Assembly: GCA_944322855.1 (NCBI GenBank)
Contig: CALUQG010000003.1
Location: forward strand, 1-64,000
Length of the DNA: 64,000 nucleotides
Reading direction: 5' to 3'
Source of the DNA: Candidatus Gastranaerophilales bacterium
Lineage (GTDB): Bacteria; Cyanobacteriota; Vampirovibrionia; Gastranaerophilales; Gastranaerophilaceae
The notes under the pieces are model-generated. The model worked only from the letters and a program-made list of their open reading frames with translations, was not told the origin of the DNA and searched no databases. The number at the start of each line of letters is the position of its first letter. The stretch's first letter is position 1. Positions 25,290 to 25,481 of this stretch are shown here, in pieces. The position numbers were made by a program, and so were the translations under genes.

Positions 25290-25481
25290 AAGGAAATTTT
25301 TATTCTTGAGCTTCATTGATAAAAACGTGAAGTGTTCTTATTTATCCATCAAGACAATCAATATTGATTGTACAGTTAATACTAACCTTTAATAACCTAA
25401 TAACTCCATAAACTCTATAACCTAACTACCAAAATTACTAACCGAATCAATGCCTTTGTTGTAAAGCAAAGGCTTTTTTTT
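25290..25481 (+). ncRNA. candidate small RNA with G-free core and own terminator
   Basis: Between the rpoC2 terminator and the next gene, a segment of about 190 nt ends in a second intrinsic terminator (GCCTTTG 25452-25458, CAAAGGC 25467-25473, then eight T to 25481). It contains an 18-bp perfect palindrome (25354-25371) and then 68 nt with no G (25376-25443), rich in short TAACC/CTAAC units. A 5' hairpin followed by an unstructured C/U/A-rich stretch and a terminator is the form of a trans-acting small RNA. No open frame fits. The 5' end and promoter are uncertain. Confidence 0.5.

Follow-up and report, generated by a model that had tools for sequence, protein, structure and literature searches.

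A predicted small RNA gene behind rpoC2

A non-coding gene located behind rpoC2 in Candidatus Gastranaerophilales very probably makes a short RNA. The existence of this gene was well supported by the comparison of genomes, and its product is predicted. The gene was studied in a contig stretch of 64,000 nucleotides, referred to as the window, and in the genomes of relatives. It appeared as a free-standing intergenic unit without an open reading frame, in which a promoter block, a G-free core and an intrinsic terminator travelled together while the neighbors changed. Given its changing places and its own start and stop signals, the unit was considered to be a real RNA gene, and the RNA, if it acts, would act in trans. 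An earlier note on this DNA had put forward such a gene as a candidate, and the conservation of the promoter block, the unpaired core and the covarying terminator in relatives supported the proposal in part, for a transcript that is predicted.

In the window, rpoC2 ended at 25209 and was followed by a separate terminator at 25226-25259. Apart from that terminator, the small RNA unit had an intrinsic terminator of its own, as the earlier note had stated, which closed the unit before the next gene. A conserved promoter-like block (25258-25323), overlooked previously, abutted the rpoC2 terminator. Since this block lies just upstream, the transcript probably starts near 25330, and the small RNA is probably transcribed from about this position to 25481. 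The features of the locus were collected in Table 1.

Table 1. Features of the small RNA locus, in window coordinates
Feature	Position	Strand	Basis
Upstream promoter box TTTATTAAGAATTGCAACA	25258..25276	+	Constant spacing to the core promoter in every aligned member
Core promoter AGGAAATTTTT, then CTTGAG, then -10-like GATAAA (25318-25323)	25291..25323	+	Block conservation
Predicted small RNA, about 150 nt here (75-150 nt in relatives)	25330..25481	+	Promoter block on the 5' side, covarying terminator on the 3' side
Perfect palindrome of 18 nt, ACAATCAATATTGATTGT, in the 5' spacer	25354..25371	.	Private to the source genome
Upstream third of the G-free run	25376..25399	+	Sequence differs and includes G in relatives
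Conserved G-free unpaired core ATAACTCCATAAACTCTATAACCTAACTACCAAAATTACTAACCGA	25400..25445	+	Near-invariant in the genus; 3' half kept across genera
Intrinsic terminator GCCTTTGTT-GTAA-AGCAAAGGC, then T8	25452..25481	+	Terminator scan; paired stem changes

The G-free core and the terminator

No G was found in the 68 nt from 25376 to 25443, just as had been claimed. This was the longest run without G or without C in the window, and the next G-free run measured 55 nt. Because a G-free or C-free run of at least 68 nt was reached in 2 of 40 simulated windows with matched dinucleotide content, the run alone was borderline unusual and weak as evidence. Conservation in relatives was strong from about 25400 to 25443 and in the terminator, and the version of 25376-25399 present here was found in no other genome compared. 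The perfect palindrome reported previously was present in the sequence and absent from every other aligned member. As neither the palindrome nor the initial third of the G-free run was found in a relative, both were placed outside the conserved unit. Thus, the check in relatives that had been proposed upheld the G-free core and the terminator as parts of the unit, and it removed the palindrome and 25376-25399.

The core was laid out as CTCTATAACCTAACTACC-AAA-TTACTAACCGA; it held many TAA stops and no open reading frame, and was unpaired by prediction. The suggestion that the lack of G keeps this segment single-stranded was supported by folding, in which the predicted unpaired fraction of the core was 0.99 for the window RNA. 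Over 60 members the mean unpaired value was 0.83 compared with 0.78 for shuffled cores, a mean that was depressed because the automatic guess of the start reached into the promoter in many members. The core differed by clade, reading CTCTATAACCTAAC in genus g1 and ACTATAACATAAC in the g2 type, and the repeated UAAC/AACC words persisted while the core shifted between clades. In g2, g27, g7, g6, g17 and g13, the shifted core ACTATAACATAACCAAAATAACCAACC was followed directly by the terminator with otherwise the same architecture, and the g12 member was similar to the g41 type.

In the alignment of members, stem pairing of the terminator was kept through changes on both sides in eight of the nine pairs. 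Double-change cells numbered 22, against 6.2 in shuffles, and none of 500 shuffles scored as high. These compensatory changes indicated selection on an RNA transcribed from the + strand.

Distribution among relatives

When 146 genomes of the family were searched at the DNA level, those of the same genus gave matches to the G-free segment and terminator with identities of about 85-88% (E 1e-22 to 1e-29), and one same-genus match was 74% identical over a longer stretch. The same-genus matches were located on contigs other than the rpoC2 contig. The exact core pattern retrieved 26 stretches from public genomes, nearly all of them named Candidatus Gastranaerophilales. A covariance model was then built from 23 members, and one strong copy was detected with it in 21 of the 22 g1 genomes, with E at most 4e-12; the sole g1 genome without a copy was an 85%-complete assembly. 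Outside g1, the model likewise detected one strong copy per genome in four g33 genomes, two g19 genomes and 19 g41 genomes. With weaker matches inspected by reading, the RNA was assigned to about 11 genera (g1, g33, g19, g41, g2, g27, g7, g6, g17, g13 and g12), and many weak matches (E 0.003-0.05) were discarded as ordinary gene-end terminators. Plasmids, phages and viral contigs gave no match to the unit, and an origin from these was rejected. One typical member was carried by a contig labelled uncultured Clostridia (L079). This public label looks wrong, because the core was identical to that of G281, a genome placed in genus g1.

The promoter block

The upstream box of the family had the consensus ATTGTTAAcTTTTGTAAAA, with the direct repeat TGTTAA-N4-TGTAAA. 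The box of the window was the weakest of the family and scored 13.8 with the family matrix, for which 1.4 matches of at least 12 are expected per window. In the g1-type block the elements (A)TTGTTAAcTTTTGTAAA, about 20 nt, AGTAAATTTTT, TTGAG and the -10-like TATAAA followed one another at fixed spacing. When the members were aligned on this block, its first ten columns were 96% identical per column in 26 members with unrelated flanks, and the identity of the box was 83% compared with about 40% further upstream. A promoter profile was built from 25 g1-type promoters, all of one clade, and applied to 103 kb from 34 loci of divergent genera. Its seven best matches, and most of the best 26, were located 88-138 nt upstream of divergent cores on the correct strand, and the block was placed upstream of the core at 23 of the 34 loci. 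This result supported the homology of both core types independently of the core itself.

The TGTTAA/TGTAAA box is a probable activator site, and its half-sites resemble the direct repeats to which OmpR-type regulators (RpaB or WalR) bind. Only a minority of genes were preceded by a box of this type, a pattern that suggested regulated expression. A promoter class with a TGTAAA/TGTTAA box, GGCAATTTT and a TATA-like -10 about 20 nt further on also recurred in several genera ahead of genes whose products are small, lineage-specific and of unknown function (L206-L229, L174:1533, L136 and L143 near 1090 on the - strand, and L250). The likeness of this class to the small RNA promoter suggests a regulon.

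Mode of action and candidate target

In the reading that we favor, with moderate confidence, the unit represents a new family of trans-encoded small RNA genes in Candidatus Gastranaerophilales; an activator would switch the gene on, and the open core of the RNA would pair with mRNAs without Hfq. Antisense pairing is preferred as the likeliest mode of action from general knowledge of such RNAs. Binding of an activator to the TGTTAA/TGTAAA box would turn on an RNA of 75-150 nt, the core of which would stay open for lack of G. It might then pair with a set of mRNAs at sites that contain G, probably within the leaders, and alter translation or stability without the help of Hfq. Hfq (PF17209) was not detected in 21 genomes, including the source genome, with five control genomes positive, and RRM proteins were likewise undetected in 21 genomes with positive controls; a small RNA dependent on either protein was rejected for this reason.

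The earlier idea that the RNA pairs with purine-rich translation starts in general was not supported, since hybridization energies were no better than those of shuffled RNAs. Over the translation starts predicted in the window, the mean was -11.1 kcal/mol compared with -11.6 kcal/mol for shuffled RNA, and no excess was observed. Long complements to the RNA in six genomes lay mostly within coding sequence, at chance level, and one leader match stood out. It was picked from this chance-level list, and one such match among about 17 is unsurprising by itself. The gene family concerned encodes about 80 residues and had no Pfam match. In genus g1, 17 of its 18 leaders carried TATAGAGTTT, which complements AAACTCTATA of the core exactly, and the remaining leader had the close variant TATAGATGTTTATG. 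Where the RNA reads AAATTCTATA in place of AAACTCTATA, as in six genomes, pairing is retained with one G-U. The genes of this family had promoters with GGCAATTTT and a box similar to that of the small RNA, which was itself located directly upstream of the gene in two genomes.

Several observations limited the weight of this match. Genome-wide, TATAGAGTTT was not enriched in the source genome (15 sites compared with 32 for the reversed word). Because its spacing to the promoter element was almost constant (one genome had 2 extra nt) and placed it at the expected mRNA start, its conservation in the leaders was inseparable from promoter constraint. The advantage of the duplex was gone if the leader starts inside TATAGAGTTT, with a mean z of 1.26 for the full leader and 0.10 for the truncated one. 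Outside g1, the search for the gene gave a single weak match, in g9, whereas the RNA was family-wide. The arrangement of these genes was also seen at an unrelated gene in G098 (L250). The TATAGAGTTT gene family is thus the best candidate target in the genus, as a lead rather than a demonstration. In the window itself, the leader of a tatA-like gene (32217-32435, - strand) had AGTTAGG twice ahead of the start codon; this word complements CCTAACT of the core, and the leader was the second best predicted partner in the window.

The main rival is a protein-binding role, because so long an open stretch was conserved. The UAAC/AACC words of the open core would then dock an RNA-binding protein, which is titrated or carried as CsrA is by CsrB. 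The conserved unpaired sequence of about 30-35 nt exceeds the usual pairing seed, the words recur and survive the changes of the core between clades, and complementarity to translation starts showed no excess. However, the most obvious candidates for the partner, Hfq and RRM proteins, were the ones undetected, and we regard this role as possible but unlikely. Like CsrB/CsrC, the RNA repeats short words and encodes no protein; its words are UAAC/AACC in an open strand, whereas those of CsrB/CsrC are GGA in hairpin loops. More speculatively still, the G-free strand of 30-35 nt may have been selected over its entire length as a linear platform that is used without Hfq, and the shared promoter class (TGTAAA/TGTTAA box and GGCAATTTT) may place it in one circuit with small lineage-specific proteins, which it would control by pairing at the extreme 5' ends of their mRNAs.

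Comparison with known RNAs

No Rfam family fitted the small RNA, for which the earlier note had likewise named no family; at permissive thresholds only sub-threshold matches were returned, mostly on the rpoC2 terminator. The identity with 6S RNA, which had already been doubted, was rejected: the long, mostly double-stranded fold with a central bubble was missing, the predicted fold being open save for the terminator, and 6S was not matched even at the permissive Rfam threshold. A housekeeping RNA, either a 6S-like regulator of the polymerase or a ribosome-associated RNA, instead of a regulator of particular mRNAs would be consistent with a single strong copy per genome and with conservation throughout the family. 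It is improbable in view of the missing double-stranded fold, the negative Rfam search and an upstream box of the minority-gene type, which suggests regulated expression.

The predicted RNA can be compared with two further known types. Yfr1 of cyanobacteria is 54-69 nt long and bears the 11-nt motif ACUCCUCACAC, unpaired between two stem-loops (PMC2190773). Both RNAs are short and single-copy, with an unpaired segment holding a strongly conserved C-rich stretch and an intrinsic terminator at the 3' end, and their hosts are of related phylum. The new RNA differs in lacking a conserved 5' stem-loop and in an open core two to three times longer. Identity with Yfr1 was rejected, for ACUCCUCACAC was absent from the window with up to one mismatch and Rfam gave no match to Yfr1. 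RNAs of the RsaE/RoxS type are C-rich single-stranded RNAs of Gram-positive bacteria, which are thought to pair with G-rich ribosome-binding sites through UCCC-type motifs, often independently of Hfq. Open C-containing stretches are common to both; the new RNA has UAACC/CUAAC words instead, without excess pairing to translation starts.

In the literature searched, no description of a small RNA in Gastranaerophilales or other Melainabacteria was found. From these comparisons of sequence, the RNA was concluded to represent a new family of regulatory-type RNA in Candidatus Gastranaerophilales. If confirmed, it would be the first conserved regulator of such kind in the gut-dwelling, non-photosynthetic relatives of cyanobacteria, a lineage in which Hfq was undetected, and would offer a concrete test system, built on a single-copy RNA, its defined promoter box and a single candidate target.

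Neighboring genes

Within the genus, the genes flanking the unit varied and included rpoC2, priA, dapF, a lexA-like gene and others. The gene order right after rpoC2 also varied among same-genus relatives (L028-L035), an unusually fluid synteny, so the changing neighbors reflect this fluidity as much as the nature of the RNA itself. A cis-acting leader or gene-end element belonging to rpoC2 or to the downstream gene (25601), or a DNA element, would suit the position between these two genes here and directly upstream of a small gene in two relatives, but is highly improbable, as promoter, core and terminator stay together while the neighbors differ and the terminator covaries as RNA and ends the unit ahead of the following gene.

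The g2-type loci (L126-L159; genera g2, g6, g7, g13, g17 and g27) shared one constant upstream neighbor, a conserved CxxCGxCC protein usually encoded on the opposite strand. An SFKG-like N-terminal motif recurred in neighboring proteins, too rarely in the compared sequence for any inference. At these loci, g6 had a rubrerythrin-like gene downstream, and g17 had a QueH-like one. In the window, the G-free RNA unit was adjoined by a gene of unknown kind for 79 residues (25601-25840), whose leader (25550-25604) contained the longest C-free run of the window, with 55 nt, and carried TTATAGGG, which could pair with CTCTATAA of the core.
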